The notes under the pieces are model-generated. The model worked only from the letters and a program-made list of their open reading frames with translations. It searched no databases and was not told where the DNA came from. DNA of 21,762 nucleotides from a virus: positions 1 through 21,762 of IMG/VR virus record IMGVR_UViG_3300045482_000040; one strand, 5' to 3'. Position 1 is the stretch's first letter. Each line of letters begins with the position of its first letter. The translations under genes were made by a program, and so were the position numbers. Below are positions 3 through 21,761 of this stretch, piece after piece.

Positions 3-149
3 CTCGACCGTGGCTGGACCCTGGCGCGCGGCCCGTTGTTCGAGGACGCCACCGAATTCGACCTCTACCGCTGGCCGCATGAGGCGGACGACATCCTGCG
101 CCGCGCAGAGCGGGATGAGCGGCGGCATGCATCGAATGCAAGTGCATGA
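3..149 (+). CDS. C-terminal end of an unrecognised protein (truncated by window edge)
   Basis: An open frame enters from the left edge and gives the last 48 residues of a protein, ending at TGA 147-149. The visible part has a hydrophobic/aromatic stretch (TEFDLYRWPHEADDIL) followed by a charged helix-like tail (RRAERDERRHASNASA). The stop overlaps the ATG of the next gene (ATGA at 146-149), a sign of translational coupling, so this is probably the first visible member of the operon that continues into the sigma-factor gene. I do not recognise the family, and too little is visible to guess a function. Confidence 0.6.
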   Translation, partial: LDRGWTLARGPLFEDATEFDLYRWPHEADDILRRAERDERRHASNASA

Positions 150-895
150 GGACAGTTGAAGGGATGGTTATCAGGCCACCGAATGAACAGTACAGCGGGA
201 GTTTTTCACCAATGCATGGACCGATGAGGCACAACTCGCCGTACAGTGATTTCGTCGCGGCAGCATACGAAGCTCACCTCAAGGAGCTGCTTCGACTCGC
301 CGGAAGTGGGCAACATGTGAAAAAGACAGAGACGGATTTGCCTCCACTTGAGGAATATGAGGCTGAGAACTGCGTCACAGATTCTTTCATCAGACTTCTC
401 AAGGCCATCGAGAGGCGAAACCCGAAGGTCATGGAGATAGTGCTGGATTACGAGCCGAGCAGCAATGTTGTACGCTTTCTCATGATCCTAATGCTTCAGC
501 GAAGTATCATCGACTATCTGAGAAAAAGGACGAGGGGTACGTACCTCTCTGAGGCAGACATGGCTTGGGTAGAACGTATGGATTCTGAGATGGATGACGG
601 CAGGATTGGTGCAATTGAGTGGCTCGTGCACAATATCGAACCAGATTGGCACGTTTCTCCGCCGCGTCCCGATATGGCAAGTGCACGCACAGATCTGATG
701 CGGCTATTCGACCACGCTGTCGCTGCGGGCAAGCTGAATGAGAAATATCAGCGCGTTTTTCAGGGGATGATGCATGGCTACTTGCTGGGATTGGACGATG
801 AAGCCATCGCTAAAAGTCTCGGGCTTGGGACCCAGGATTTTCAAAGGCTGAGGTATAAGCTTATTCAGAAGCTGCGCCCGTTTGCCGGCTCTTGA
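146..895 (+). CDS. ECF-like RNA polymerase sigma factor
   Basis: The 249-aa protein has the two-domain layout of ECF (group IV) sigma factors. A region-2-like helical block runs from about residue 37 to 130: VTDSFIRLL, then a core-binding/-10 helix ending in QRSIIDYLRKRTR, which matches the usual iDylRrr pattern. A region-4-like helix-turn-helix occupies roughly residues 198-245 (EKYQRVFQGMMHGYLLGLDD, then EAIAKSLGLGTQDFQRLRYK and LIQKLR). At 249 aa it is longer than most ECF factors (about 160-200 aa); extra sequence lies at the N-terminus and in the linker. The start at 146 is chosen for its 4-bp overlap with the upstream stop; ATG 212, preceded by GGGAG at 197-201, is an alternative. The gene is much AT-richer than the tail module and uses AGG/AGA arginine codons, which suggests horizontal acquisition. 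It sits 11 nt upstream of the next gene. Its promoter targets cannot be read from this window. Confidence 0.72.
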   Translation: MRTVEGMVIRPPNEQYSGSFSPMHGPMRHNSPYSDFVAAAYEAHLKELLRLAGSGQHVKKTETDLPPLEEYEAENCVTDSFIRLLKAIERRNPKVMEIVLDYEPSSNVVRFLMILMLQRSIIDYLRKRTRGTYLSEADMAWVERMDSEMDDGRIGAIEWLVHNIEPDWHVSPPRPDMASARTDLMRLFDHAVAAGKLNEKYQRVFQGMMHGYLLGLDDEAIAKSLGLGTQDFQRLRYKLIQKLRPFAGS

Positions 896-906
896 GGGTG
901 ATGAAG

Positions 907-1593
907 ATGTCAAACACGAAGAAAACCGAACTCCTGAATATCATCGACAAGATCGCCGCCGAAAATCGAATGAAAGATTTTCTTTCTGATATCGAAGGTC
1001 GCACCCGTGAACCGGGTGACGATCTCGTTAAGCGCACTTCTGAGCGTGTTCGCGCGGCGATCAGGGAATTCGACGCGCGGGAGAATGTTGCCGTGGCCGC
1101 AGAGTCGGGAGGCGCGCTTTCCTTCGTGTTCGAGAAGCTCAAGGATGCCTACATTGCCCTGCCGCGCCTTGTCCTCGTCGATACGGACATTGGTGGCCCG
1201 GTAGCTGGCCGCGCCGATGATGGTGCTCGGCGCTCCGCACGCCGTCGTTCCAAGCCTTCCAATTTCTGCACCTGGAAGCAGGATGCCTTCCAGTTCACGC
1301 TGAGTTGCCGGCTCAGGAACCCCGATCCGGTCACGCTTCACATCGACGAGGGCCCCGAGGTCGAGTTCCGTGAATTGCGCTGGATCGACGAAGACGACGT
1401 TCAGGGCGATCCTGATCGGCCGATAACTGTGAAGAGCTTCCCTCTCAAGCGGTTGCCCGACACCACCAGAGCTTACGAGGTGAAGATGCACGTCGTTACT
1501 TTCCAGGCGAGGATGGGCGCCATCTATGCTGCCAAAGAAGGTGCGAGGGCGGACAGTGCCGACGTTCGGCTGCTGCTGCCGTTTGTTGTCTGA
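907..1593 (+). CDS. Unrecognised 228-aa protein between the sigma factor and the Lon-like protein
   Basis: I do not recognise this family. The first roughly 75 residues look helical and charged (TELLNIIDKIAAENRMKDFL; SERVRAAIREFD). A basic patch follows (ARRSARRRSK near residue 110), and the C-terminal half is rich in beta-type alternation (FQFTLSCRLRN, VTLHIDEGPEVEFRELRW, AYEVKMHVVTFQARM) and ends in LLLPFVV. ATG 907 is chosen because GAGG at 894-897 lies 9 nt upstream; the frame is open back to TTG 892, and ATG 901 is possible but too close to that site. It lies 11 nt after the sigma gene and 29 nt before the giant Lon-like gene, so it is almost certainly co-transcribed. By position it could be a sigma-binding regulator or a protease substrate, but no anti-sigma motif is visible, so that is inference only. 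Confidence 0.6.
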   Translation: MSNTKKTELLNIIDKIAAENRMKDFLSDIEGRTREPGDDLVKRTSERVRAAIREFDARENVAVAAESGGALSFVFEKLKDAYIALPRLVLVDTDIGGPVAGRADDGARRSARRRSKPSNFCTWKQDAFQFTLSCRLRNPDPVTLHIDEGPEVEFRELRWIDEDDVQGDPDRPITVKSFPLKRLPDTTRAYEVKMHVVTFQARMGAIYAAKEGARADSADVRLLLPFVV

Positions 1594-1622
1594 GTAGAGA
1601 TCAGGAAGGATCGGAGGTGAGT

Positions 1623-4600
1623 ATGCGGGACGCGGGGGCCGTGAAGGAGAAGTCGACATTGAGCCTCGGAGAATACTGGTTGCGCGATCAGGCCGCCGCT
1701 TTCGCGGCTACTCTTCTGGGCACCCATGATCCGCTGTCCGAGCCGCGGTCCCTCGCTTGTGCCAAGTATCTCGCCGACAGCTTGGACGTCGTATCCGTCG
1801 AACTGCTGTCCGACAGCACCCTGCGCCTGCTCTCAACAATCGATCGGGCTTGCTACGACTGGTACCGTGAGGATTGTGTCAAGGAATTGAGTACGGCGTG
1901 GAAGCTTGACAGCTTCTCCGCCGGACCGATCCACCTAGGCGCGCTCGCCGCCAAGGCTCATCGCGAACTCCTGAAGCGAGACAAGGTTGGGACCGGTGAA
2001 CTGAACCGGATCTTGATCTCGCATGCGGTCTACCTCCTGCGACGCCCGCACCTCCCTGCCCTCAAGATCCTCAAATGGTTACATCGTGCGGCACCCAAGG
2101 CTGTGCCCGGCATGAAGACGATCCTTCAGCACTTGCAGCACCCGGACTCGACAATAGGGCAAAGGATAGAGGCTGCCTTAAACGGAAGCCGCGATAACGG
2201 AAGCCGCGATATCACGAAGCAGACCCGAGATCGGCTCGACTACGCGGATGATCTTCACGACGCCGTGTTGGAGGCAGCCGGTCCTCAGCGACGCGTAGTG
2301 GAACCATGGCTGGTGCGGATCCTGACTGCTTATCGTAGCAGCATGTTCTGCTGGCCACTCCTGACTGAAGGGGCGGAGCAAAAGCCGGAGGATACAGAGG
2401 ACGAAGCGGCCGAAGGAGAGCAACGACATCAGCCTGTCAGGGGCCTGAGTTTGCCGATTTCGCTCTTCGTGTCCGAGGACGGAGAATCAGATTTTCTACC
2501 CAGTCCGAACCCTTACGGCCAGAAGGTCTCGCTCGATTACATCCTTTCACACGCGGAGAAAAAATTCTGTAAAGGCAAGCCGCAGTTTCAGCCCGCCGAA
2601 GCTGAGCTTCCGGCGCGGTTGGGTGATTTCCGCATTGGCTTCCTTCCGGAATGGCGGAGGTCCTTCCAGATCGGGCTCGATGTCGCCAAGAAGCTGTGGG
2701 CAAGCCAGAATGGGCGTCTCAACTTCGTTGACCCGAATGCGGCCAAAAAGAAGCTCTACGCGAGCCTGATTGTCGATGTTCGGGCCGCTTGCGACATCGT
2801 TGAGGCGGTGTTTTCAGTCGTTCCCGCCACCGGATGGAAGCGGCTGCCAACCGAGAACCGCTTCTTCATGTTGAGAGGCCGCAGTGCCGAAGCGTACTGG
2901 GTGCAGTGCGCTCTTTCGCTTCTTCTGCCTTCCGGCGACGTGCCCATGGGCGTGTGCACGGGGAAGATCGAATACAATGACAACGAGTTCGAAATGGGCA
3001 ATGTGCGGGGCATTTCTGCCAAGCTCGAGTACGCCAACCGGGCAGGTTTTCCGAGGGTGGTCATCGCAGGCGACCGTCGAGATTACTTCGGCGAGGAACC
3101 TGTCGACGAGGATGAAAAGGGTGCAGACGACGACACAAGTTCGACAATCCCATCGGTTGTGACTGCAGCGGAAGAGGACCTCGAGCCACTGGAGGATCCG
3201 GACCCCGTAAAGGCCGAAGTGAAGGCTTTTCTCGACGGTCTCTACAAGGATGGTTCGACCAAGACCCTCGAGGTCAACTTCGCACGCACCGCTCGGGCTG
3301 CGGCAGATGCGCTGCAGCCTTCGGGATGGCGCCGGACCAGCTTTCTGAGGACTCCGGACTTCCAGAAGAAATTCCTGCGCACTCAAAGACGCTTGTTCAT
3401 CACGAAAGCTTACAACGATCAGCACTTGAAGCGCCAGCTGAAAAGCGCTGATATCGAATTCTACGAAAAGAAAGGAGGACAGTGGTATCAGCATGAGGAG
3501 GAAAAGCTCGGGGCGCTGGATAAGCGTCTGACCTCTGCAACGGGGCGGACTGTGATTCATGTCACGCGCAAAAGCGTGCGAGACGCCTATCCGGGCCTTG
3601 ATGTAGAGACGGCCCTCGGAAAGTGGGCAGCGTGGAAGGATCACAGGGCACGTAACAATTTTCTGGAGCCGGGCCTTGGTGTGGCGACTCTTCGGTCAGC
3701 CGAAGGGGATACGGAAACGCGGCTATGGTCAGCCTTGGCCGAGATGCTCGATGCGGGCGAAAGCTGGTGGGAGCAATTCCAGTGGGCGGATTTGCCGAAT
3801 GCTGCCGATCTGCTCGGCAAGCTTCTGTGCAATCAGAACGCTGACCAGAGAATCGGTCTCGGTGTGGCGCCCGACCTCCTGATCGTGTTGGACGACGCCG
3901 GCTTCGCGACGCGCAGGACGAACCGGATTTTCCCGACAGAGTTTCATCACCAGTTTTTCGATCTGCTTAATCCACGACATCACTTGAATCACAAGCGTGA
4001 TTATCTGGACGAGGCGCTGAAACGGTATGATCGGACTGGACGCACACTCGGGACCCGGATCGTCGTAGTGCTCGCAGAGGATGAAGAACTGGCCCCGGCG
4101 CAGGTGGATGTTAACCTCCTGCCCGAAGACCGAGCCTTGCTCGACCGGCTGTCGATCTTCCGGTTCGGCAGCAGCCGTCACGCAGCCTACGCGATGGCCA
4201 ATTTCGATGTGGAGAAACGTTCTCTAATTGACTGGAAGCGCTTCGAGCAATCCGTTCTGAGGCTCCGCGATGCAGGGCTTGTCGCCGAGAGCCGCTCGGA
4301 TCTTTTCCTGACGCAGAAAGGCCGTCAAGCAGCAGGGAAGCCAGAGATATTCGAAGATCCCTGGTGCCTCGCCCTCGCGCATCGGCATGCGGCACTTGCC
4401 CTTTGTCCGATCCTTTATCCGCAGGGCGCGCGTATCGCGACAAACCGTGACCGTCAGCTTGAGCCGCAAACCGTCCTTGACGCTGCCTGGCATCTTCGGA
4501 CCGCATTTGACCTCGTGCCATGGCGATTCCGCAACCAGTGGCCGACTTCAGACGGCCTTCCGCATGTTCGCGGCGCCCAGGCGCAACTCACGTTCTTGCG

Positions 4601-5111
4601 GACCGCGCCCGACTGGGACACTGTAAAGAAGCTCCGTGCGAACCCAGACACGCTTTACGATAGTGTCGAACTGTCGCGCGAATTGCTGCGTTCTCAGGCC
4701 AAGGTGTTGGATCGGGAACCACCATCCACAGTCGTTGGTCTCGCTATCGAGACCCTTGGTCGTCTTCACAAGAACAAGCCGCCGGGCCGTGCCAAGATTG
4801 ATGCACATGCGGCCGAGATCTGCGCCTTGGTCGACGCGGCCATCACAAACTTGGAAAATGAGACGGAACACGGCCAGCTGACAAGAGTGGAGAAGCAACG
4901 CCGGAGGCGGCACCTTCTTTTTCGGCAGGTCTATGCCTTGCGGATGCTGGATCTGCCACTGGACGACTCGCGCGTCACGCGCGCGCGCGTGCATCGACAA
5001 TGCGGTGGTGAAGATATTGGCTCCGGACTTCCTTCGAAACCTCGGGGAAGGGCGCGAGGGCTTGGACGACTTTCCGATTTCCTACGACTGCTTGCAGGCT
5101 CTTTGGACTGA
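1623..5111 (+). CDS. Giant protein with Lon (S16)-like protease domain and winged helix; 5' part of a frameshifted gene
   Basis: This frame encodes 1162 aa, but only about the first 1120 look genuine; the tail after the (CG)6 run at 4978-4989 is out of frame and the gene really continues to 6048. Layout: helical N-terminus (1-250), acidic linker (about 253-275), Lon-like domain (about 290-495), second acidic linker (about 505-545), a mixed region with a Walker-B-like strand (LLIVLDDAG near 752) but no Walker A that I can find, a winged helix (about 868-905, LRDAGLVAES...LFLTQKGRQA), then helices. In the Lon-like part, RGRSAEAYW resembles the Lon DGPSAG serine motif (Ser421), and TGKIE...RGISAKLEYANRAGF resembles the LonB TGE...GGVTPKIEAAIEAG stretch (Lys467). 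The 46-residue Ser-Lys spacing is close to the 43 of E. coli Lon. Start ATG 1623 has GGAGGTGA at 1613-1620; GTG 1617 is an alternative. Whether it is an active protease, and whether the central region is a degenerate STAND-like NTPase, are inferences. Confidence 0.7.
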   Translation: MRDAGAVKEKSTLSLGEYWLRDQAAAFAATLLGTHDPLSEPRSLACAKYLADSLDVVSVELLSDSTLRLLSTIDRACYDWYREDCVKELSTAWKLDSFSAGPIHLGALAAKAHRELLKRDKVGTGELNRILISHAVYLLRRPHLPALKILKWLHRAAPKAVPGMKTILQHLQHPDSTIGQRIEAALNGSRDNGSRDITKQTRDRLDYADDLHDAVLEAAGPQRRVVEPWLVRILTAYRSSMFCWPLLTEGAEQKPEDTEDEAAEGEQRHQPVRGLSLPISLFVSEDGESDFLPSPNPYGQKVSLDYILSHAEKKFCKGKPQFQPAEAELPARLGDFRIGFLPEWRRSFQIGLDVAKKLWASQNGRLNFVDPNAAKKKLYASLIVDVRAACDIVEAVFSVVPATGWKRLPTENRFFMLRGRSAEAYWVQCALSLLLPSGDVPMGVCTGKIEYNDNEFEMGNVRGISAKLEYANRAGFPRVVIAGDRRDYFGEEPVDEDEKGADDDTSSTIPSVVTAAEEDLEPLEDPDPVKAEVKAFLDGLYKDGSTKTLEVNFARTARAAADALQPSGWRRTSFLRTPDFQKKFLRTQRRLFITKAYNDQHLKRQLKSADIEFYEKKGGQWYQHEEEKLGALDKRLTSATGRTVIHVTRKSVRDAYPGLDVETALGKWAAWKDHRARNNFLEPGLGVATLRSAEGDTETRLWSALAEMLDAGESWWEQFQWADLPNAADLLGKLLCNQNADQRIGLGVAPDLLIVLDDAGFATRRTNRIFPTEFHHQFFDLLNPRHHLNHKRDYLDEALKRYDRTGRTLGTRIVVVLAEDEELAPAQVDVNLLPEDRALLDRLSIFRFGSSRHAAYAMANFDVEKRSLIDWKRFEQSVLRLRDAGLVAESRSDLFLTQKGRQAAGKPEIFEDPWCLALAHRHAALALCPILYPQGARIATNRDRQLEPQTVLDAAWHLRTAFDLVPWRFRNQWPTSDGLPHVRGAQAQLTFLRTAPDWDTVKKLRANPDTLYDSVELSRELLRSQAKVLDREPPSTVVGLAIETLGRLHKNKPPGRAKIDAHAAEICALVDAAITNLENETEHGQLTRVEKQRRRRHLLFRQVYALRMLDLPLDDSRVTRARVHRQCGGEDIGSGLPSKPRGRARGLGRLSDFLRLLAGSLD
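2181..2210 (+). repeat. Perfect 15-bp tandem duplication inside the Lon-like gene
   Basis: The unit AACGGAAGCCGCGAT occurs twice back to back (2181-2195 and 2196-2210). It keeps the frame and encodes NGSRD twice, at residues 187-196 of the giant protein, in a polar linker between helical parts. The two copies are identical, so the duplication is probably recent. Confidence 0.9.
4978..4989 (+). repeat. (CG)6 dinucleotide run at the frameshift point
   Basis: Twelve bases of alternating C and G lie exactly where the coding frame of the giant protein changes. With six units, translation runs off-frame to a stop at 5111. One additional CG unit would give ...DDSRVTRARACIDNAVVK... and open the gene through to 6048. 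Dinucleotide runs are prone to slippage, so this could be a phase-variable switch, an inactivating mutation or a consensus error. Confidence 0.8.
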
Positions 5112-6048
5112 CGGCGCCCGAGAGACCTCTCCGAATAAGACGCTATCGGCCTCCGAGCGATCCCGCTACGCTTATGCCGCCGCTCGGTCCAACCTGCCGA
5201 GGTCTGGATCGGAAGAAGGGAAATACTGGGACGATCCGTGGTTCGCCTACTTTATCCGGACCAGGCCGGAAGATGTCGCCCCGGCGCAGATCGTGGCGCC
5301 GTTGATGACGTGGTGGGAGGTCTACGAGCACCCTCTCGAGGAGTCTCGAGCATTCGGGCAGCGCTTTCTGGACAAGGAGGTTCACGCGGCTCGTTCGAAA
5401 AGCGGAGAATGGAGGGAGAAATGGCTCAAGGACCTTGGTCAGGCGTCCGCCAACCTGTGGCACTACGTTGATAACCGAGACCCATCCAAGCGCCTGAAGG
5501 GACGGCCAGTCGCCCCTGCTCTTCGACTGATTAGCGTCATTGCGCTTCCGGAACTGCTTCCGGCATGGCGCTTCGTGAAGGACGGTGGGCCCGAGTGGCT
5601 GCAACGCTGGCCGATCCTCGCCGGTTCGAAACCCAGGCCGCATTGGCCGCCCCCCGCACATGGATGCTACGGCTTCGTGGCCGACGAGTGGTCGGCACTG
5701 GCCCGCGCCGTCGTCGGTCACAAGGCGGGCTGGGTTGCCATGCTTGCGTCACTTCGGCTGATGCCCGACAACTCGGCACGGCTTGCCCTCTTGCGGTCAT
5801 GGCTTTCAGGCTGCCAATCGCTCGGAATCACCCAACTGAGTGGGCGAGACCCTGAAGGCCTGCTGCATCTCTGCCCCGAACTGGACATCTCGAACGACTT
5901 CAGCAAGCACCTCTACTTCGCACGAGCGTATGTCGCCCGCTTCCTTGACGTCGGACGAGCCGGCGCGGACCTCCTGCAGGACCCTGAAGATTGCGGGCTT
6001 CTGAGAGATTTCGTTGGTCAGATCATCGGCGTCGTAGCCGAGGCCTAG
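4990..6048 (+). pseudogene. Out-of-frame 3' continuation of the giant Lon-like gene
   Basis: This frame is open from upstream of 4933 to TAG 6046-6048. It carries about 352 residues with normal globular composition (DNAVVKILAPDFLRN, WDDPWFAYFIRTR, LISVIALPELLPAWRFV, LHLCPELDISNDF). No Shine-Dalgarno site precedes any in-frame ATG or GTG near its beginning (GTG 5005 and 5008 are the nearest), and its sequence continues naturally from the preceding frame once the CG run is corrected. It is therefore best read as the C-terminal third of the same protein, giving about 1475 aa in total, rather than a separate gene. It looks largely helical with many Trp and Leu residues, and I recognise no domain. 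If the shift is real, the cell makes a protein lacking this part. Confidence 0.65.
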
Positions 6049-6094
6049 GGGAAAGCGGGAAAACCACCCCCCACCTCCGACTGAGTGTTCGAGT

Positions 6095-6114
6095 TCGCCC
6101 ACATGGGCGGGCGA
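6095..6114 (+). other. Small inverted repeat in the intergenic gap after the Lon-like gene
   Basis: TCGCCC at 6095-6100 is complementary to GGGCGA at 6109-6114; an alternative fold pairs CGCCC 6096-6100 with GGGCG 6105-6109. It lies in the 85-nt gap between the Lon-like gene and the HicA-like gene. There is no T-run after it, so terminator activity is doubtful; it could equally be an operator or chance. Confidence 0.25.
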
Positions 6115-6133
6115 GACCCAGAGGAGGTGGACG

Positions 6134-6580
6134 ATGGCGGACGACATCAGCGAGAGGCTCGTCAGGGCGGCGCGGGAGTGGGGCGCGACCGGTCTGCGTA
6201 TCGAGCGAGGCGGAAAGCACCCCCGGCTGATCGGACACTACGACGGCTTTGCCTTCATGTTCGTCTTCCCCGGCAGCACCGGGGATCGGCGTGCGGTTCT
6301 GAACTGCCTTTCCGATCTGCGGCGCGTCATGGGCGTCGAGCGGGAAGTAAAGCCGGAACGCAGTCCGACGAAGTCCCAAGTGCGGAGGGTCAAGCGCACG
6401 GTGCGGTCGACGTCGCCCGCGGTGGAGCCCGTCCGGCGCGAAGATCGGTACTACGCCCCGCTAGCTCAGATCAGGGACAGCATGGTTGCTAGCGGCCCCA
6501 AGGCGAGGGCCGAGGAAGATCGGCCTACGCCGCTTCGCACGCCGTTTCTGGGGCGGCGTCGGCGTTTCTTGAAGGCCTGA
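6134..6580 (+). CDS. HicA-like small protein with basic C-terminal tail
   Basis: This 148-aa protein begins with a domain of about 75 residues resembling the HicA/dsRBD-like fold: a first helix (ERLVRAAREWGA), a strand (LRIERGGKHPRLIGHYDG) with a Lys-His pair (His29) where HicA toxins carry their catalytic Gly-Ser-His, a strand (AFMFVFP), and a helix (DRRAVLNCLSDLRRVM). A Pro/Arg-rich tail follows, ending in RRRRFLKA, which is longer than canonical HicA (about 60-80 aa). GAGGAGGT at 6121-6128 sits 5 nt before ATG 6134, a strong ribosome site. No HicB-like antitoxin lies next to it, so it may be a stand-alone RNA-binding relative rather than a toxin. It is separated from the Lon-like gene by 85 nt and followed by two hairpins, so it may end the operon or be its own unit. 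Confidence 0.55.
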   Translation: MADDISERLVRAAREWGATGLRIERGGKHPRLIGHYDGFAFMFVFPGSTGDRRAVLNCLSDLRRVMGVEREVKPERSPTKSQVRRVKRTVRSTSPAVEPVRREDRYYAPLAQIRDSMVASGPKARAEEDRPTPLRTPFLGRRRRFLKA

Positions 6581-6585
6581 CATCG

Positions 6586-6600
6586 CCCGGTGGCACCGGG
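6586..6600 (+). terminator. First of two tandem hairpins after the HicA-like gene
   Basis: CCCGGT (6586-6591) and ACCGGG (6595-6600) form a 6-bp G+C-rich stem with the 3-nt loop GGC, five bases after the stop codon. No T-run follows, so it may act with the next hairpin, stabilise the mRNA end, or be a weak terminator. Confidence 0.45.
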
Positions 6601-6622
6601 CCGCGCCGGCGGCCCGGCGCGG
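6601..6622 (+). terminator. Second hairpin, 9-bp perfect stem
   Basis: CCGCGCCGG (6601-6609) pairs perfectly with CCGGCGCGG (6614-6622) around a 4-nt loop (CGGC). It abuts the previous hairpin. The stem is strong but is followed by TTCACAACC rather than a U-tract, so intrinsic termination is likely but not certain. It marks the boundary between the HicA-like gene and the ATPase unit. Confidence 0.5.
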
Positions 6623-6704
6623 TTCACAACCGACGCGCGGGAAATTCGATCGTGTCCGCCGACTGTGCCATTAGGCCCGCCACCAATCCATGAGGAGCGC
6701 CTCC

Positions 6705-6935
6705 ATGCCAGAAGACGAGCGTGTAATCTCGCCCGCCGTACGAGACAGCCTCGCGCTGTGCGAGCTGCGCGAGTTTCAACAGTGCGCGCGCCATCTTTCC
6801 TTCACCCTTGCGGTGCGTCGTGCGGCGATCGATGCGCTCACCACCGCGGCACGGCGCGTGGCGATTGATGCCACCAATCCTGCATTCAGCTCGCCCGACT
6901 GCATGGCCGCACGCCCTGGGGCCGACGATGCGTGA
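6705..6935 (+). CDS. Small 76-aa protein overlapping the ATPase gene
   Basis: I do not recognise this protein. The middle is alpha-helical in character (LALCELREFQQCARHLSFTL, AAIDALTTAARRVAIDA), with a polar C-terminus (PGADDA). ATG 6705 is chosen because GAGGAG at 6692-6697 lies 7 nt upstream; ATG 6690 in the same frame would overlap that site. Its stop (TGA 6933-6935) overlaps the likely ATG of the ATPase at 6928 by 8 nt, so the two are probably translationally coupled and may work together. The gene is supported by its ribosome site and overlap rather than by homology. Confidence 0.5.
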   Translation: MPEDERVISPAVRDSLALCELREFQQCARHLSFTLAVRRAAIDALTTAARRVAIDATNPAFSSPDCMAARPGADDA

Positions 6936-9139
6936 TCGGCCCCTGAGTCCGGGCGGAAACGAACCTCGTCGCTTGCCCCGCGGCGATGAAGAAATTGCTG
7001 GAATGAAGGTCTTCGGTGGTAACGGCGTGCTCCACGTCGCCGACAGCCCGTCACGGGAGGTAGTTTTGCGTTTGCGCCCCGGGACGATGCAACCTGACGT
7101 GGCGCTTCTAGATCGCCATCGCGTTCTCGCAGGGCTGGTGAACGACTCCAACGGAGCAACCCGCTTGAGTGTCACCTATGCGCTGCGCCGAGACCTGCCG
7201 TTAGAAGTTGCGGTTGCACTCGTCTATCGTGTCGGCCGCATTCGGTCTCCTGTGTCATCTTCAGGGGTCATTACGAAGCGGTCGCTCGAAGTGATATGCC
7301 GAGTGGCGTTCCCAGGCATGGCGGCTGTCGAACCTTCCATGCCCCTGCTCACGGGGGCGCCGACGCGACTGCTTGCCCCTGCTTTCGATGCTATGTCGCT
7401 TAGCTCCGTTCGAGGCGCCGCTGTTCATCCTGGTCCTGTCGGCAGGCCAGCGCACAAAGCCCTTTTCCTGCCACTCGGCGGCAGATCTGCCCTCTCGCTG
7501 GATCGTGCGCTGATTGGTCTGGCCGAAGCGGGCGTCGAGGCTGACCTCACGATCGAAATCTCCTGTGCCGTGCTCGATGCCTCGGTCCTGCGCGCACTTT
7601 GCGAAGCCCGGGAGCAGCTGGTCGCGGCGACATATTCGGAAGACCAGCCCGGTGCGGTACGTGCGGCGCTCGCGGATATTGATATCTGGATGAAGACCCA
7701 GAAGCCTATGCACAGGGTCGAGATCTCGGTGCGGTTTCTTGCTGCGTCCCAGACTGCCGAGTTACATCTCGTTGAAACGCTGATCTTCGGCACCGTTCCC
7801 CTCCCCGCCGGCACGCGAGCGTCCGGGGTCGATCTTTCCGACTTGGTTCGCGGAGGCACGCACGTCCCGAACTTCGTGGTGCATCCCGCCGCAGTCGCGG
7901 TGATCGCGAATGCCATGCGCAAGCGCCACCGGCGTCCAGTACGGGGCGACGTGATCCGGCTTGGTGCGGACGAGTTCGGCAGGACAGTCGCTGTGCACGC
8001 AGACGACCTGCGGCAACATCTCTACATCGTGGGTCAGACCGGGGTCGGAAAGAGCACCTTGTTGCGGAACATCGCGTTGGCCGACGCGCGAGCTGGACGC
8101 CCAGTGATCCTGGTCGACCCGCACGGAGATCTCCATGCCGAAGTCCTTGAGGCACTGCCCCGGCCGGTCCGGGCACGCGCGATCGTGGCGGACGCAGGCG
8201 ATTTCGAAGCACCGTTCTCGCTCAACGTCCTGGTGGTGAAGGGACGCCACGCTGCCATCCAGCGGAACTTCATCGCCAATCAGTTGATTGAGGTCTTCAG
8301 GTCTCTCTACGGCTTCAACGCCGAAATTCTGGGCCCGATGTTCGCGGCGTACTTCAGGGGCAGCCTGCTCCTCCTCATGGAGGCGGGTGGCGCCGACGCT
8401 TCGCTCGTTGATCTGGAACGGGTATTTGGTGACGCCGCATACCGGCGCAGCCTTCTGCAAGAGTGTACCGACCCTTCGGTGTTGAGCTTTCTGGAAGAAC
8501 ATTGCCCAGAAAGCAGGCGGAGAGGCCTCACTCGAGAATATTGCTCCCTACATCACCAGCAAGTTGACACAGATTGCGGGGAATCCGTTCCTTCGACCTA
8601 TCCTTTGCAATCCCCGCACGACGCTCGACCTGTCTGCTGCCATGGCCGAAGGCCGGAGCGTACTCATCAATCTTGCAAAGGGTCTCGTTGGGGGTGCGGA
8701 TGCAGGAATCCTTGGAGGGATTTTCACGATCCGCGTTTTCGCAGCTGCCATGGAACGCGCGCGCCTAAGGGTCGCGGATCGACGGGTGGCGAGAGTCATC
8801 CTCGACGAGTTCCAGACCTTCGGTGCGGTCGGACTGCTCAACGAGGCGCTTGCCGAGGTGCGAAAGTACGGACTGTCGATTGTTTTGGCAAATCAGTCTG
8901 TCACCCAGATCGACGGCGGTCGAGCAGGCGACCTCGCGCATGCCATTCTCGGCAATTCAGGCAATCTCGTAGTGTTTCGCTTGGGGCCGAAGGACGCCAA
9001 TCTCCTGGCGGAATGGCTCGGCCAGGAGATCGCCCCCTCGACGCTGCTTCGGCTACCCAACCACACAAGCGTAGCGCGCCTGCTTCGCAAAGGCGAACCG
9101 ATGCCACCAGTGGCTTTTCGCACCGTACGGAGCGACTAG
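6928..9139 (+). pseudogene. HerA/TraG-type DNA-pumping ATPase, split by one frameshift
   Basis: Reading through a one-base shift near 8491 gives 736 aa with the features of the HerA/FtsK superfamily ATPases annotated as DUF87 or type IV secretion DNA-transfer proteins. These are an N-terminal beta-rich region (1-345), Walker A GQTGVGKST with Lys375, VILVDPHGDLHAEV, LNVLVV, a helical insertion (QRNFIANQLIEVFRSLYGF), then after the shift VLINLAKGLVGGADAG, Walker B VILDEFQTF, RKYGLSIVLANQS and FRLGPKDANLLAEW. The break is located because family members have a Dp.v..FW motif: here AGC TTT is followed by an extra C and then TGG AAG, so the expected SFWKNIAQKAGG is restored by skipping C8491. The frame used before the break stays open to 9153 only by chance. 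Such ATPases translocate DNA in conjugation, repair or defence systems. The last codons overlap the oppositely oriented tail-fibre gene by 4 nt. Confidence 0.78.
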
Positions 9140-11043
9140 TAGTCCGTCTCTAGGCAGACGCCGCTGCAGTCATAGGCGACCGCAGCCGCCGTGCTGCCGG
9201 TGTTCATGTAGTTGCGGGGGCTCAGGAGCTGGGTGGCGGCGGGGAGGTTCGCGGTGATCTCGACCTCGGCGACGGCGCCGGAGACTTCCTCGACGACGCG
9301 GACCCAGACCGACGCGGCGTTCGGGGCGGCATAAAGGAAGAGGGTCAGGACGTTCGTGGGCGCATCGACGGGGAAGCTCGCGCCGAGATTGGTCAGCGTG
9401 GGCGACCCGGAGCCGGAGTTGTGGACGATCTGTCAGTTGGCATGCGTGCCGCGCTGGAAGCCGATGCCGATGGCGTTGACGACGGCAGAGAGTGCGAGCG
9501 TAGTCGCCAGCGCCGCCGTCGAGCCCATGAGCCCGAAGAAGCCCATGCCGGTGGGCTGAAGCGTCGTCAGCGAGAGCCGGTTCACATAGGTGAAGCCGCC
9601 CAAGCCCTTCGGCATTGCCGCGCCAGCACACCCAGCCCGCCGAGCGTTCTTCGGCCGCCGCGTCCACCGTGGCCGCGCTGGTCATCCGCCAGCGGCGCAT
9701 CGAGGTGGAGAGGTTGGTGGTGGCGAGGCCGGGCGTCGAGGCGGTGCCGACGCCCGTGCGTGGCATGCCGATCGCGTTGATCGTGGTGCCGGAGGACGGC
9801 GCCCACCAGGCGATCCGGTTCACCCCGAAGTGGGGCTGCAGCGGGAAGTCCCGCCCCGAGGGGCGCATGACGTCGATCCACGGCGCCCCGGCGCGGCTGC
9901 GCGCATAGACGGCGGCCTTGCCCGCGGGCGGCGGGTCCGGGGGCGTCGCGCGGCCGGGCAGGACCATGGGCTCGGGAAGTTCGACCCGGCCGCTGGCGCG
10001 GTCGATCCGGATCGCATCGAAGAAGGTCGAGCCATCGGGGCTGACCTTGAAGCTGAAGTCGTCATTGCCGGCAACCCGATCAGGGCGCGGGCCGAGAAGC
10101 CGGTCTTGAAGGCGAAGGCGGCATCGTCGCCGGGGGTGTTCTTGTTGAAGGTCGCCTCGATCCCGCCCCCCGCATGGTTGAACAGCATCGCGGGGGTGTT
10201 GATCGAGAAGCGGTTGAAGGCGTCGGCCGTGGCCCAGCCGTGGCCCAGCGCTTGGGCGGTCAGGTTGGCCTGGGGCATGCCGACCTGCGTGACGCTGTTG
10301 GCGAAGGTCACGGTGGGCGTGTTGATCACCGTCGTCCCGCCCGCACCGGAGGTGGCCGAGCCGATGTTCACGACGGTGTTCGACCCGGGCGCGCCGCCGG
10401 TCCCGAGGTTCACGGTCTTGGTGGTGCCATTGGTCGTGGCGCCTGTCCCGACGCCATAGGTGGCGGCGCCGGTCGAGGTGCCGAGGGTCGCCGTTCCCCC
10501 GGAGGCCGTCAGCGTGCCGGAGAAGGTCTTGTTCCCCGAGAAGGTCTGCGTGCCCGCAAGGATCGCCAGTTCCGAGGAAGTGTTCGGCAGCGTGTAGGTC
10601 CGGGTCTGGCCGGTCGAGATCGAGGCCAGCGAGAAGACGGCCTTCTTCGTCGGATCCGCGTCGTTAACCAGGCTGAAGACGCTGTCGGGCACGTCGCGCG
10701 GTTCGCCGACGCTGGCCCAGCTGGAGCCGGACCAGACGAGAAACGCGCCCTCGTCGGCGACCCAGACCAACCAACCCGGACGCGGGACGAGCCGGATCCA
10801 TGCGCCGTCGACCCAGAAGGCCACGTTCAGATCCCAGCCCGCCCAGATCCCGGTCGCACCCAAGGCCACCAGATGCCGGTCGCCGTCGGCGGGGCTCGCG
10901 GGCGGCGCGGTGCGGGAGCGGTCGAGGACGGCCAGCTGCACCATGGCGTCGAGCAGCCGCAGTGCCTCGTTGTGGGTGACATGCTTCTGCGTCTGCGCGG
11001 CCATGAGATACGGCAGGCCGAGATGGGTGGTGGTGTCGGACAT
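9136..11043 (-). pseudogene. DUF2793-type phage tail fibre protein, disrupted
   Basis: The N-terminus ([53 protein letters not shown]) is typical of DUF2793 proteins at the end of Rhodobacteraceae prophage and GTA-like tail modules. A low-complexity Gly/Thr/Ser region follows ([17 protein letters not shown]), then beta-rich receptor-binding-like sequence ending TDY with stop TAG 9138-9136. ATG 11043 has AGGA 8 nt upstream. Restored length is about 635 aa. Three lesions are visible: a one-base loss near 10071 (gene strand GGCC read as GCC), a one-base gain near 9600 (GG to GGG) and TGA at 9435-9433 inside HAN-stop-QIVHNSG, where Trp is expected. The gene ends against the plus-strand ATPase gene. 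It would recognise the host surface. Confidence 0.75.
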
Positions 11044-16809: not shown

Positions 16810-19045
16810 TCAGAGGCCGCGGCGGCCCATCGACACCGCGCGGGCGATGTCGGCCGCGACCTGCGTGCGGGATTGGCGGAAGCTCTCTACGTCGCGGGCC
16901 ATGATGGTGACGTTGATCCCGCCGCCCGCGCCGTAGCTCTGCGCCTCCCGCCGCGACAGCACCCGCTCGCCGCGCTGGAGGGTCATGGCCCGCAGCGCCA
17001 CCGGTTCGAGCGTGGGCCATGACGGCACCTCGTCAGGCTTCAGCCCGACCCAGCCGCTCGAATGCATCCTCGGCGCGCCCGCGAAGGCCAGCGCCGGGAC
17101 CAACCGGCCGGGACCGGCCGCGGCGACCGTGCCACCTGCGTGCAGCACCGAGGCGAACATGCCCCCTGCACCGCCGAGGACGCCCGACAGAGGCCCCGCC
17201 AGCGGGCCGAGAATGAAGCGCCGTGCGGCGAGCCGGGCCAGATCGGCGATCATCGAGGTCACCAGATCGCGGAAGTCGAGCTTGCCCTTGCGCACGAAGT
17301 CGGCGACGGCGGTCTCGGCGGACCGGAAGGCACCCACCAGCGCCGCGCCGATATCGCTGCCGATCTCGCGGGCGCGGGTTGCGTAGTCCGACAGTGTCGC
17401 CGTCACCGCCTCCCAGCCGGTCAGCGCCGTGTCCGCGCCGCTGCCGGTATCGTCCCCCGCTTGGCGTCCGGCAGAACCGGCGCGCCCTGCGGCGGCTTCG
17501 GCTTCGTCCAGTGCTTCGGCCACACGGCGGGCCCCGGCGCTCGCGGCATCGAGCGCGTCCTCGGTCTCCGCTCCCGAGCCCTGAACCGCCGCCGCCAGCG
17601 CAGCCACCGCCTCGCGCAGACCGTCGAAGGCCGTGGCGCGGGTCTCCGCGGCACGCTCGCGGAAGCGGTCGGCGGCGGCACCGGCATTGCTGGCGGCATG
17701 ATCCAGCATCGAGGCCCAGGACTGCGCCCTGAACCAGTCGATCTGCAGGTCCGAGCCGACGCGCTCGGACACCGCATTGAAGGTCGGGCCGATCTGGCCG
17801 AGGAAATCGCCCATTTGCCCGCAAGAAAGGCCATCAGCCGCGTCCAGATGCCCTCGATATCGGCGCGCATGGCACGGAAGTCGTCGGCGAAGGAGCCGAG
17901 ATAGCGGCCCATGCCGTCCCAGACCGCGCGCGCCACATCGCCCATGAGCCGCAGCGCCTCGCCGATCCCGCCTGCACCGCGGGCAAGGCGGGAGAACTGA
18001 TAGACCAGCTCGCCCGCGCCGACGATCAGCGCCCCGATGCCGGTGCGGATCAGCGCGCCGCGCAGGACCACGAGCGCCGTCGCCAGCCCCCGGACCGACA
18101 GCGCCGCCGCCGCCAGCCCCACGACCCAGCGCCCGGCCATGAGGGCAGCAAAGGTGGCGGCATAGGAGGTGAGCCGTCCGAGATTGTCGAACAGGGTCCG
18201 GATCGCGATGCCGAGCGGCCCGGCGTGCGCGCGACCGTTGCCATGGGATCGGCGACAGCCTCCAGCGCGGGGGCGGCGGCGACAGCGAGCTGGTTCGAGA
18301 GACCACGCCAGATCAGGCCGAGGCGCGAGATCGCATCGTTTGTGCGCTCGATCTGGCGGGCGTCCTGATCTCTGACGACCACTCCGAAGTCGCGCACGTC
18401 CGCCGTCGCTTGCCGCAGCGTCGCGGTGTCGATCCGCGTGAAGACCAGCGCCGCACGGTCGCCGAAGAGCTGCGCGGCCACGGCGGCACGCTCGGCCTCG
18501 GGCACGAGGTCCGCCAGCCGGTCCTGGATAAGCGCGATGCGCTGATCGAGCGGCAGGGCCTGCAGCTGCGCCGCCGTCAGGCCGAGCCGCTGCAAGGCCC
18601 GGACAGCCGGCCCGGCTCCGGCGCGCGATGGCTCGCTCGAACCCATGGCGCTCGCCATCGCGCCCTGGCTCAGCCGCCGGGTCAGCTGCATCGCCGCTTG
18701 CTCGATCTGGCCCATCGACACGCCCGCCAGATCGCCCGCGCGCTCGAGCACCTGGATGCTGGCGACCGTCGTGCCGAGCGAGGCGGCGAGCTTGGCCTGC
18801 GCGTCGACGGCGGCGAGGCTCGAGCGGATCATCGCCGTCGCCGCCGCCGCCAGCGCCCCGGCCGCTGCCGCCGCGGTGATCCGCGCGCGCCGCGCGAAGG
18901 CGGCAAGCCGGGTGTTGGCCAGCTCCATCTCGCGCGACAGACGCCCGAAGCCACGCGCCCCGGCCTCGCCGACGCCTTCAAGCTCGGAACGCACCTGTCG
19001 GCCGCCCACCGCCGCGAGGCGGACGGATACGCGTTTCTCGGTCAT
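16810..19045 (-). pseudogene. Phage tail tape measure protein, two frameshifts
   Basis: Restored length is about 745 aa. The N-terminal part has helices and coiled-coil-like repeats (SRLSREMELANTRLAAFARR, ARITAAAAAGALAAAATAMI) typical of lambda-type tape measures, then TRRLSQGAMASAMG and the Leu/Ala-rich middle. A hydrophobic segment follows (VVGLAAAALSVRGLATALVV). The C-terminal third (DLVTSMIADLARLAARRFIL, GGMFASVLHAGG, INVTIMARDVESFRQSRTQV) is the conserved tape-measure end also seen in GTA-type tails. Two breaks: near 18224 (CC to C after GCGCA, gene strand) and near 17815 (AAAA to AAA); each is repaired by one added base. ATG 19045 has AAGGAG 6 nt upstream. It sets tail length and is injected. 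Unusually, its upstream neighbour is an antisense toxin-antitoxin pair. Confidence 0.82.
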
Positions 19046-19055
19046 CGGAAGCTCC

Positions 19056-19084
19056 TTGCTTTCGCGGCTCTCGCGTCTTACGTT
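19056..19084 (+). promoter_or_regulatory. Possible promoter for the toxin-antitoxin pair
   Basis: TTGCTT (19056-19061) and TACGTT (19079-19084) are spaced by 17 nt and lie 29 nt upstream of ATG 19114. Each matches the sigma-70 consensus at only three of six positions, so this is weak. The spacer contains CGCGGCTCTCGCG, an interrupted inverted repeat that could be an autoregulatory operator. Confidence 0.25.
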
Positions 19085-19113
19085 ATTGGCATCGATCCAT
19101 GAGGCGTATGACG

Positions 19114-19326
19114 ATGGCCGAGACCGCGACCCTGTCCTCGAAGTTCCAGATCTCGATCCCCAAGGCGATCCGGACTGCCCAGGCCTGGGAGGCCGGCCTG
19201 ACCTTCGCCTTCATCCCCAAGGGCACCGGCGTCCTGCTGGTGCCGGTGCCGAAGAAGGAGAGCCTTCAAGGCCTCGCGAAAGGGGCGCGGCCCGAGGATT
19301 ATCGCGACCGGTCGGACCGGACCTGA
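19114..19326 (+). CDS. AbrB/MazE-type antitoxin (VapB-like)
   Basis: The 70-aa protein shows the swapped-hairpin AbrB signature: TATLSSKFQISIPKAIR, a turn with WEAGLTFAFIPKG, then GVLLVPVPKKE, and a polar toxin-binding tail (GARPEDYRDRSDRT). ATG 19114 is favoured because GAGG at 19101-19104 lies 9 nt upstream; ATG 19108 and 19099 are in the same frame. The stop overlaps the toxin start (TGATG, 19324-19328), the usual antitoxin-first coupling. It should neutralise the PIN toxin and repress its own promoter. It lies antisense to the phage late operon, so late transcription through this site would make antisense RNA to it. Confidence 0.82.
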   Translation: MAETATLSSKFQISIPKAIRTAQAWEAGLTFAFIPKGTGVLLVPVPKKESLQGLAKGARPEDYRDRSDRT

Positions 19327-19706
19327 TGATCCTCGTCGACACCTCGGCCTGGATCGAATGGCTGATCGGCTCGCCTACCGGCGAGGCCGTCGCCGGGCAT
19401 CTGCCCGCGCAGGAGGCCTGGGTGGTGCCGACCATGGTCCAGCTCGAACTCGCCAGATGGCTCGCCCGCGAGGTGGGCGAGGGCAAGGCCGATCAGGTCG
19501 TCGCCTTCACGCAGGTCTGCCGGGTCGTGCCGCTCAACACCGAGATCGCGCTCGCGGCGGCCGAGGCCTGCCGCGCGCATCGTCTCGCCACCGCCGATGC
19601 CATCGTCCTCGCCACGGCGCGCGCGAGGGACGCGATGCTGGTGACCTGCGATGCACATTTCGAGGGCTTGCCGGGGGTGCAGGTGATCCCGAAGCGGCCT
19701 TCCTGA
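19326..19706 (+). CDS. vapC: VapC-type PIN-domain toxin ribonuclease
   Basis: This 126-aa protein has the complete PIN-domain acidic set: Asp5 in ILVDTSAWIEW, Glu41 in TMVQLELARWL, Asp91 in ATADAIVLATA and Asp109 in LVTCDAHFEGL. PIN toxins of type II systems are Mg2+-dependent RNases that typically cut tRNA or rRNA and stop growth; the specific target cannot be told from sequence. Length and all four residues are normal, so it is probably functional. It starts inside the antitoxin stop codon, and its own stop lies 3 nt from the convergent stop of the tail chaperone gene. Within a prophage it could stabilise the element or act against competing phages. Confidence 0.87.
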   Translation: MILVDTSAWIEWLIGSPTGEAVAGHLPAQEAWVVPTMVQLELARWLAREVGEGKADQVVAFTQVCRVVPLNTEIALAAAEACRAHRLATADAIVLATARARDAMLVTCDAHFEGLPGVQVIPKRPS

Positions 19707-19709
19707 CCA

Positions 19710-20374
19710 TCAACCGCGCGCGGCCGCCATCTGTTCGTTGATCCTGCGCACCATCACCGCCTCGATGGCGGGCAGGAACTCGGCCATGGCCAAGGGCGGG
19801 ATGCCGAGGGCGCGGCCCAGCGCGAGCGCCGCGCCCATGTCCCAGCCGATCACCGCGCCGGGGAGGAGGCGCAGCTCGCCGCCGAGGCGCTGCGCCAGAT
19901 CCCAGACCTGTGCGCCCTCAAAGGTGACAGGCCGGTTCAGCCTTGCGGGGCAGTCCGGGCAGGCTTGCGGGCAGGCCGCGCAGAAGGCGTCGCCCCCGCC
20001 GTAGGACCACTCGGCGAGGGCGCAGAGGCGTTTTTTTCCTGCTCGAGCAGCAGACCCTTCGCCACATACGCCGCCTGGAAGGCCTCGAAGGCGGGCCAGA
20101 TTTCGAGGAGTGCGTCGATCCCCTCGGGGGTCACGCCGACCGGGTTGCCCTCGGCATCGCCGATGCCCTCCCAGTCGAGGATGGCGAGCCACGCGACGGC
20201 CCTGGCCATGGTCAGGGCCAGTTCCTCCGTGCTCGCTTCGGGCGCCAGCGCCTCGACCGCCGGATCGGCGCGGGCCGCGACCATCAGCGCGGTCGTCAGC
20301 GGGCGCAGCTTCAGCCGCACCCCGGGCAGAAGCTCCAGCCAGCGGGGTTCGTTCGCAAGATCGAGCCGCAGCAT
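19710..20374 (-). CDS. Tail assembly chaperone, -1 frameshift product (lambda GT analogue)
   Basis: A -1 shift at A AAA AAC joins codon 115 of the chaperone to a downstream frame that stays open to TGA 19712-19710, giving 221 aa. The added 106 residues look like a real folded domain: Cys-rich start (FCAACPQACPDCPARL), then VTFEGAQVWDLAQRLGGELR, GWDMGAALALGRALGIPPLA and EAVMVRRINEQM, resembling the small DUF1799-like second chaperone ORF of other prophages. The GT form would bring tail-tube subunits to the tape measure, by analogy with lambda. The second frame has no independent start with a ribosome site near its beginning, which supports fusion by frameshifting. Confidence 0.68.
19937..20374 (-). 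CDS. Phage tail assembly chaperone, unshifted product (lambda G analogue)
   Basis: The zero-frame product is 145 aa. MLRLDLANEPRWLELLPGVR and LKLRPLTTALMVAARADPAV followed by AWLAILDWEGIGDAEGNPVG resemble tail assembly chaperones found between tail tube and tape measure in alphaproteobacterial prophages. After the slippery site at codons 113-115 the zero frame gives a 30-residue low-complexity Ala/Pro/Ser tail, as expected for a stretch under little constraint. Its ATG overlaps the tail tube stop (TGATG, 20376-20372). In lambda the equivalent protein G and its frameshifted form GT coat the tape measure during tail assembly; the same role is inferred here from position and signal. Confidence 0.7.
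   Translation of the reverse strand: MLRLDLANEPRWLELLPGVRLKLRPLTTALMVAARADPAVEALAPEASTEELALTMARAVAWLAILDWEGIGDAEGNPVGVTPEGIDALLEIWPAFEAFQAAYVAKGLLLEQEKNASAPSPSGPTAGATPSARPARKPARTAPQG
19991..20036 (-). promoter_or_regulatory. Programmed -1 ribosomal frameshift signal: slippery heptamer plus hairpin
   Basis: On the gene strand the heptamer A AAA AAC (20036-20030) is phased exactly in the zero frame (GAA AAA AAC). After a 7-nt spacer (20029-20023), CGCCCTCGCC (20022-20013) pairs with GGCGGGGGCG (20000-19991) as ten continuous pairs with a single G-U, around a 12-nt loop. This is the classical layout for -1 frameshifting in phage tail chaperone genes. Confidence 0.75.
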
Positions 20375-21319
20375 CAGGCATACTCCTCCACATCGTTGAC
20401 CAGCGTGACCGGCACATGCGCGCCGGCGAGGACGCTTTCGCCGGCTGCCAGGAGAACTGCGTCTGCACCGCCCCCGGCCCCTGCAGCTGCCGCCGCGGGC
20501 GCGACAGCTGCACCGCATGGGCGATGATCGTCAGCGACTGCGTCGGGCCGCGCTGCCAGCGAGCGCGAGTTCGCAGGGCGCCCCGTCCCGCGCCTGGTCG
20601 AGCAGCACGTGGTTCGAAAACCGCACCGTCAGATCGCCGGTGAGCGCCGCCATGCCCGGATCGCCCCCCTCGATCAGCCCGTCGCCGCGCACCGTGGCGA
20701 TCCGCTCGATCCCGTTCGCATACCGGAACGAACCCTCGTCACCCCGCCGAGCGGCACGCCGTCGCGCAGGATCTCGCCGTGGAAATGCCCGACCCGCAGC
20801 CGCTCCACCGCCGCGGGGGTTCCGGCGCCGCTCGTCGCGGCCGTCGTCTCGGACCGCGCGATGAGCGCCACGCTCGCGGCCAGCATCTCGTCGGCGCGCC
20901 GGAACCCCCAGCCGATCTCATTGAGCACGCAGCCGCCATGCATCGCGAAGGACGGCACGTCGGGGTTCTGCAGCTCGATCGCCGCCGAGGGCAGCGTGTA
21001 GGAGCCCGACTCCCAGACATGGGTGAAGACGCCGGCATCCTCGGTCGTCACGGGGTTGCCGAAGGCGAGCTTCAGCCAGAAGCCGATCTGGCGCAGGTCC
21101 ACCGGCACCTCGCCCGAGAGGTCCACGTCGATGAAGCCCTGCATCGGCGCGGCCGGGTCGCGGCCGGCGCCGAGCGGGTCCGAGGCGACGAGCTCCTGCT
21201 GCGCGCCTCAATCCATGCGCACGAAGCCGAGCGCCCGGTAGCCGGTCGCGGGCGGGGTGCCTGAGGCGCGTCTCATAGGCGAGCGCGAGGCCCGCCCGGC
21301 TGCCGAGAGCCGTGGCCAT
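20374..21319 (-). pseudogene. Phage major tail tube protein, multiply disrupted
   Basis: Restored length is about 315 aa. Recognisable blocks are MATALGSRAGLALAYET, TGYRALGFVRMD, MQGFIDVDLSGEVPVDLRQI, GFWLKLAFGNPVTTED, VFTHVWESGSYTLPSAAIEL, MHGGCVLNEIGWGFRRADEM and a C-terminal part ending VTLVNDVEEYA; the order fits the tail tube protein of siphovirus prophages in this group. It polymerises into the tail tube. ATG 21319 has AGGAG 6 nt upstream. Five lesions are visible: a shift near 21262 (one base gained or two lost), TGA at 21210-21208, and one-base losses near 20738 (expected GTGACC GAG), 20559 and 20444. If these are not sequence errors, no tail tube can be made. Confidence 0.68.
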
Positions 21320-21341
21320 GGTCGTCTCCTTTCTCGATGGG

Positions 21342-21761
21342 TCAGCCGAGCGAATCGGCGGTGGTGTAGTGCAGGACGACCGGGATCACCGCCGCCTTGA
21401 GGCTCGCGGCACCCTCGACAGGCAGATCGACCGGCCGTGGCGCTTCCGCCTCCACCCAGTCACAGAGGCCGCCAAGCGTCCGGTCGGCAGCGAGCGCCGA
21501 GCCGATGCTGGCGGTCAGCGTGTCGAAAGCGGCGTCACGCGCCGCGCCCTGCACGACCGCCTCGATCTCGGCGCGGTGCTGGTAGTGGTATCGCAGCGGC
21601 GAGAGCGTCACCTCCGGCTCCCCCGGGTCGCCATCGCGCAGGATCACGAGCCCCGCAGGCGGCACCCGCTCGGGCAGCACCTCGCTGCGCAGGGCGATGG
21701 CGGGCAGCGCGACAAGCCGCGCGTGCAGCGCGGCGAGGATGGTTTCGCGAAGGGTGGGCAT
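21342..21761 (-). CDS. Phage tail terminator / tail completion protein
   Basis: This 139-aa intact protein (MPTLRETILAALHARL, LPERVPPAGLVILRDGDPGE, VTLSPLRYHYQHRAEIEAVV, DRTLGGLCDWVEAEAPRPVD) matches the small protein found just upstream of the tail tube gene in Rhodobacteraceae prophages, sometimes mislabelled acyl-CoA transferase. The position and the alpha/beta pattern suit a tail terminator that caps the tail tube and joins it to the head. ATG 21761 is two bases from the window edge, so an upstream start cannot be excluded. It ends 22 nt before the tail tube ATG. Confidence 0.65.
   Translation of the reverse strand: MPTLRETILAALHARLVALPAIALRSEVLPERVPPAGLVILRDGDPGEPEVTLSPLRYHYQHRAEIEAVVQGAARDAAFDTLTASIGSALAADRTLGGLCDWVEAEAPRPVDLPVEGAASLKAAVIPVVLHYTTADSLG

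Follow-up and report, generated by a model that had tools for sequence, protein, structure and literature searches.

Probable programmed −1 ribosomal frameshifting in a tail assembly chaperone gene from a siphovirus prophage akin to those of Rhodobacteraceae

In a siphovirus prophage akin to those of Rhodobacteraceae, two reading frames of the gene for the tail assembly chaperone are very probably joined by a programmed −1 ribosomal frameshift. The gene lies in a 21.8-kb virus record (21,762 nucleotides), the whole of which is referred to here as the window, and whose tail genes fill the right half on the minus strand (Table 1). The case is built on a slippery site in the right phase, a stem just downstream, the conservation of both among relatives, the gene order, and a weak resemblance in fold. 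In the mechanism that we infer, which extends to the slippage itself, its efficiency, and the roles of the products, most ribosomes would stay in the zero frame and terminate at the stop ending at position 19937, giving a 145-aa, G-like chaperone. An 11-bp hairpin 7 nt ahead would sit at the mRNA entry of the ribosome during the slip, and a minority of ribosomes would re-pair both tRNAs one base back (from AAA AAC to AAA AAA) and read 106 more codons, yielding a 221-aa, GT-like fusion with the same start. If the parallel with lambda holds, the binding partner of the zero-frame part would be the tape measure protein, the −1 part would bring in the tail tube protein, and tail assembly would be sensitive to the proportion in which both products are made.

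Table 1. Features of the frameshift signal and of the surrounding tail genes, in window coordinates.
Feature	Position	Strand	Basis
Slippery heptamer A AAA AAC	20036-20030	-	Zero-frame phase, read from sequence
Zero-frame tail assembly chaperone ORF, G-like product, 145 aa	19937..20374, stop included	-	ATG at 20374, stop 19939-19937; PHROG 313 match; model fold
−1 frame continuation, T-like domain, 106 codons plus stop	19710..20030	-	Codons 20030 to 19713, stop 19712-19710
Spacer between heptamer and stem, 7 nt	20023..20029	-	Read from sequence; same length in relatives
5' arm of 11-bp stem (putative stimulator)	20012..20022	-	Folding, pair retention in relatives
Hairpin loop, 10 nt	20002..20011	-	Folding
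3' arm of 11-bp stem	19991..20001	-	Folding, pair retention in relatives
Tail terminator gene	21342..21761	-	PHROG 4204, E 2e-44
Tail tube gene, just upstream of chaperone	20412..21321	-	Relative's protein matches PHROG 290, tail
Tape measure gene, downstream	16810..19045	-	Relative's protein matches PHROG 8462, tape measure

The zero-frame codons around the site read ...GAG CAG GAA AAA AAC GCC... on the minus strand, placing the heptamer in the phase A AAA AAC, as a preliminary description of the window had stated. It is the only AAAAAAC in the window, where chance alone would give 0.34 copies and at least one turned up in 31 of 100 shuffled windows; by itself, the heptamer is weak evidence. 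The 7-nt spacer was likewise found where that description had put it. Of the hairpin, the G+C-rich stem stood and the dimensions did not: the proposed 10 bp and 12-nt loop give way to 11 bp and a 10-nt loop through one extra inner G-C pair. This 11-bp stem is the minimum-energy fold of a 55-nt segment, with pair probabilities of 0.95-1.0. The folding energy of an 88-nt stretch was not unusual when compared with dinucleotide shuffles (z −0.63), and this test is left out of the support because it was not significant; Rfam gave no match within 19700-20400. Translation of the sequence yields the open −1 frame of 106 codons and the products of 145 and 221 aa that had been predicted, the longer being composed of 115 + 106 residues.

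It is conservation, as judged from sequence comparison, that raises this signal above chance. Viral contigs, genome contigs, and a phage collection were scanned with both parts of the gene. The scans yielded genomes and prophages, from Rhodobacteraceae and otherwise mostly alphaproteobacterial; the phage collection contributed Rhodobacter, Nostoc, and Synechococcus phages. Once identical copies were dropped, 189 distinct loci were judged. The two parts stand in a −1 relation in 188 of them, and 187 combine this relation with a heptamer of the form X XXY YYZ where the parts meet: AAAAAAC in 183, AAAAAAA (followed by G) in two, and GGGAAAC in two. Because the pattern used to scan for the −1 part did not span the slip site, the resulting set was not selected for the heptamer. 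None of the 189 relatives fuses both parts in a single frame, and the heptamer is lost or out of phase in one true exception, L214, a metagenome-assembled genome that carries AAAAGAAC; the preliminary description had named both kinds of homologue as ones that would speak against it. L180, which also departs from the pattern, appears to be a misjoined scaffold; its heptamer is still there. Distant queries (the RcKemmy and Synechococcus versions) added 12 loci, down to 33% identity, and every divergent relative (33-49% identity) that was read at the joint has AAAAAAC or GGGAAAC at the same place. In L245, L247, and L248, the zero-frame stop comes one codon past the heptamer, and the hairpin is still present.

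These counts bear on the idea that the gene was once a single frame from which sequencing error or mutational decay removed, or to which it added, a base in the A run. The window itself invites such a reading, as its tail genes contain several frame breaks: four pieces make up the tail tube gene at 20412-21321, and the tape measure gene is spread over three frames within 16810-19111, both being intact in relatives L003, L165, and L166. These breaks may reflect a defective or decayed prophage, or indel errors in the contig. Yet the run recurs, together with the −1 relation, in independent genomes and assemblies (the 187 of 189 above, with no fused homologue), the relatives whose tube and tape measure genes are intact also carry the run, and the frameshift signal of this copy agrees with theirs. 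We give error or decay next to no chance of being the explanation.

Transcriptional slippage would produce the same two products if RNA polymerase added an extra A in the run of seven, leaving part of the mRNA already in the −1 frame. The run reaches eight in L074 and in cyanophages; seven A is short for polymerase slippage. Against this reading, GGGAAAC, which contains no homopolymer, occupies the same place in RcKemmy, RcKai, L244, L247, and L248. A replacement of AAA by GGG at the first three positions that leaves the logic of tandem slippage intact is predicted by ribosomal slippage and not by a polymerase slipping on a homopolymer. The conserved phase of the heptamer, the fixed spacer, and the presence of the stem also fit ribosomal slippage, and we regard the transcriptional route as very improbable.

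The preliminary description had proposed checking the spacer and the stem in homologues, and both proved to be kept. Among 65 non-redundant relatives, whose alignment is ungapped, the spacer is 7 nt throughout, and a mean of 9.85 of the 10 pairs originally described can form, compared with 4.9-7.0 with slid partners. When the sequences were folded individually, the minimum-energy structure contained 10 or 11 of the 11 pairs in 59 of the 65 and nine pairs in one more. RNAalifold proposed another, weaker consensus structure (−13.4), whereas the 11-bp stem scores −21.0 on the same alignment; this consensus was not accepted at face value because the named stem is nearly complete in 60 of 65 individual minimum-energy folds.

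Codon choice within the stem is unusual and favours the codons that pair. The Leu codon is CTC or CTT in 62 of 63 sequences, against a family frequency of 0.39, and the middle Gly codon is GGG in 59 of 62, against a family frequency of 0.10 and of at most 0.21 at 13 other Gly columns. The Ala codons agree with pairing and are less telling because some other Ala columns are nearly as biased. Compared with synonymous recodings drawn from family codon usage, the stem region is more stable, with a mean z of −2.2 versus −0.1 for control stretches, and z falls below −1.5 in 78% of sequences versus 11% of control stretches. The zero-frame overlap may contribute to this codon constancy; frequent C-to-U changes that leave a G-U pair in place but change the zero-frame residue speak for the stem as its cause.

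Changes on both sides of a pair are scarce because the stem sits in two overlapping coding frames. Among close relatives, such changes were no more frequent than in shuffles, a comparison that is uninformative since the columns hardly vary. In the divergent set, seven cells were changed on both sides; a single shuffle among 500 matched that number and none of the 500 the covariation score, counts that are not probabilities because the divergent relatives are not independent. The outer pair, for example, has gone from C-G to G-C in L245, L247, and L248, and a C-G pair has become U-A in RcKemmy, RcKai, L244, and L247. The branch comprising L252-L255 keeps the heptamer with only 5-7 of the 11 stem pairs. 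In this branch (positions about 2020-2045), another short hairpin, TTCGGCG...CGCCGAA, occurs further downstream. Taken together, the aligned sequences indicate that a stem a few nucleotides downstream of the heptamer is under selection, with a weaker case in L252-L255, and the family offers a clean comparative case for a hairpin at a tail-chaperone frameshift.

The frameshift could also be real and its stimulator a pseudoknot rather than a simple hairpin, with GGUC of the loop pairing with GAC-U in the downstream CPDC codons. In 56 of 63 sequences, four or all five of its pairs are possible, and the codons TCC (Ser) and GAC (Asp) vary unusually little, a constancy for which the zero-frame overlap and protein constraint can account. 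Where the loop has changed to CAC (His), however, the downstream GAC is unchanged, so covariation is absent. We consider the pseudoknot unlikely and retain the simple hairpin as the putative stimulator.

The identity of the gene was approached from its zero-frame product, which matches PHROG 313 (Tail assembly chaperone) with an E value of 1.4e-24. For the AlphaFold model of this part (mean pLDDT 78.5), comparison with PDB structures reported two matches, both with Z above 4, one of them the HK97 protein 2OB9 (Z 4.3, rmsd 5.9 over 93 residues), which is weak in absolute terms. The named leading matches in the Foldseek viral list were mostly tail or tape-measure chaperones, again weak (E about 1e-3). 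Foldseek found no significant match for the zero-frame model in the PDB, and profile searches of both parts against PDB sequences gave nothing meaningful. Weak singly, the structural matches point in the same direction, that of a tail assembly chaperone. The gene order is tail terminator, tail tube, chaperone, and tape measure, with the same placing in RcKemmy and RcKai. PHROG 313 and the gene order support a G/GT-type tail assembly chaperone, with which the model fold weakly agrees, and, with the conservation of the site, they support the original suggestion that a tail chaperone here carries a −1 frameshift signal.

The surroundings of the gene hold further elements. A PIN-domain VapC-like protein (PF01850, E 8.6e-21) and a small upstream ORF without a Pfam match, at 19099-19706 (+), form a toxin-antitoxin-like cassette that lies in antisense orientation in the gap separating the chaperone stop from the tape measure start. 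Among 163 distinct loci with enough flank, 34, this window included, have a VapC of 72-92% identity in the same gap, its 3' end at most 16 nt from the chaperone stop; the tape measure gene directly follows the chaperone in 107. In L164, L068, L200, L086, L087, L122, L158, and L099, a gap of 320-860 nt separates chaperone and tape measure without a VapC match, and other cargo may occupy the same site. In the left half of the window, at 146-9150 (+), a 1164-aa ORF and its neighbours have no Pfam or PADLOC matches and are followed by a HerA/mad8-like ATPase ORF (PADLOC mad8, E 2e-9), accompanied by a TraG/TraD-like ORF in another frame at 8564-9136; together, these genes may be a module for defence or of a mobile element.

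The −1 part matches Pfam DUF7697 (PF24752) and PHROG 11212, both labelled as of unknown function in their databases, only from residue 53-56 onward (residues 53-105). Both families thereby begin near the earliest start codon (ATG or GTG) in the −1 frame, located at codon 55 in 82 loci and at codon 60 in 66, as would be expected if the −1 ORF were an independent gene, translated from a start of its own by coupling to the zero-frame stop. It is drawn so for Nostoc phage Nsp-JY21 and Synechococcus phage Sc-Yong805-1, in which two genes are annotated. The conservation of the −1 frame, however, extends well ahead of that start. Invariant residues begin directly after the heptamer (L2, A4, L5, W8, C17...), and the roughly 54 codons before the internal start are strongly conserved in the −1 frame. 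W8, C17, C20, C24, and C27 are invariant in 44 of 44 aligned sequences, the cysteines forming a C-x2-C-x3-C-x2-C motif; divergent relatives keep all four, with variable spacing between the two pairs. Moreover, the −1 frame of the relatives tallied contains no ATG or GTG between the heptamer and codon 31, and a joined gene is annotated in the RcC phages, the GenBank records of RcKemmy and RcKai giving a short chaperone gene plus a two-piece joined gene. A separate gene is extremely improbable; an extra product from the internal start, made beside the frameshift product, is possible.

Both DUF7697 and PHROG 11212 appear to be pieces of the frameshift product that were truncated at a start codon, and the simplest reading is that both families were built from gene calls beginning at the internal start. 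Their models miss the first half of the domain, which holds W8 and the four cysteines, and with it the frameshift link. Automatic annotation had been expected to split the gene, and it has done so in Nsp-JY21 and Sc-Yong805-1 and in the half-length DUF7697 and PHROG 11212. The plasmid collection gave two matches, both lacking annotation, and DUF7697 is not mentioned in the collection of papers searched. In Sc-Yong805-1 (OP858991), the tail gene that directly precedes the chaperone bears the label 'site-specific tyrosine recombinase' and the one before that 'acyl-CoA transferase'; both are probably misannotated tail proteins.

The four-cysteine pattern is typical of metal binding, and metal binding is what we infer for it from the sequence. 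AlphaFold modelled the −1 part with low confidence (mean pLDDT 60). We propose tentatively, and with slightly more doubt than conviction, that the −1 part forms a T-type domain of its own, which binds metal and is confined to the frameshift product, and that DUF7697 and PHROG 11212 are truncated pieces of it. If so, the frameshift ratio would set the number of chaperones with a zinc- or iron-sulfur-dependent contact to the tail tube. The case as a whole suggests a function for DUF7697 and PHROG 11212. The arrangement itself is already annotated in RcC-cluster Rhodobacter phages; what is new is the reassignment of these two families and the cysteine motif.

The choice of heptamer deserves note, as A AAA AAG outperforms A AAA AAC as a slip site in E. 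coli (PMC5009743). Here, a site held to be weak in that host appears to be the rule. Its near-universal use may reflect alphaproteobacterial tRNAs, or only the final C; since this C also starts a conserved arginine codon of the −1 part, the preference may be partly forced.

Frameshifting of this kind is known from lambda and many other phages, and the gene is probably a further example. Like lambda gpG/gpGT, it lies between tail tube and tape measure and encodes a short zero-frame product and a putative longer −1 fusion from one start. The slippery site of lambda is G GGA AAG, whereas the family described here has A AAA AAC (or G GGA AAC). Also unlike lambda, the family has a strong conserved hairpin 7 nt downstream, and its −1 domain carries the invariant four-cysteine motif; in this window, the toxin-antitoxin-like cassette lies between chaperone and tape measure. 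The −1 frameshift of lambda was described by Levin 1993 and Xu 2004, 2013, and 2014 (as reviewed in PMC5009743). There, the binding partner of the zero-frame protein is the tape measure and that of the −1 domain the tail tube, at a ratio of about 30:1 (PMC5009743). With the HK97 chaperone 2OB9, the likeness is confined to a weak fold resemblance of the zero-frame model, without detectable sequence similarity to PDB chains; frameshifting of 6-7% has been measured in assays for an HK97-like chaperone cluster (PMC3711429). The Rhodobacter capsulatus RcC-cluster phages (RcKemmy, RcKai, and others; PMC8601537, GenBank MW677517, OP009272) have a homologous chaperone whose parts likewise stand in a −1 relation, with about 41% identity in the zero-frame part and about 50% in the −1 part, and differ from this window in using GGGAAAC.
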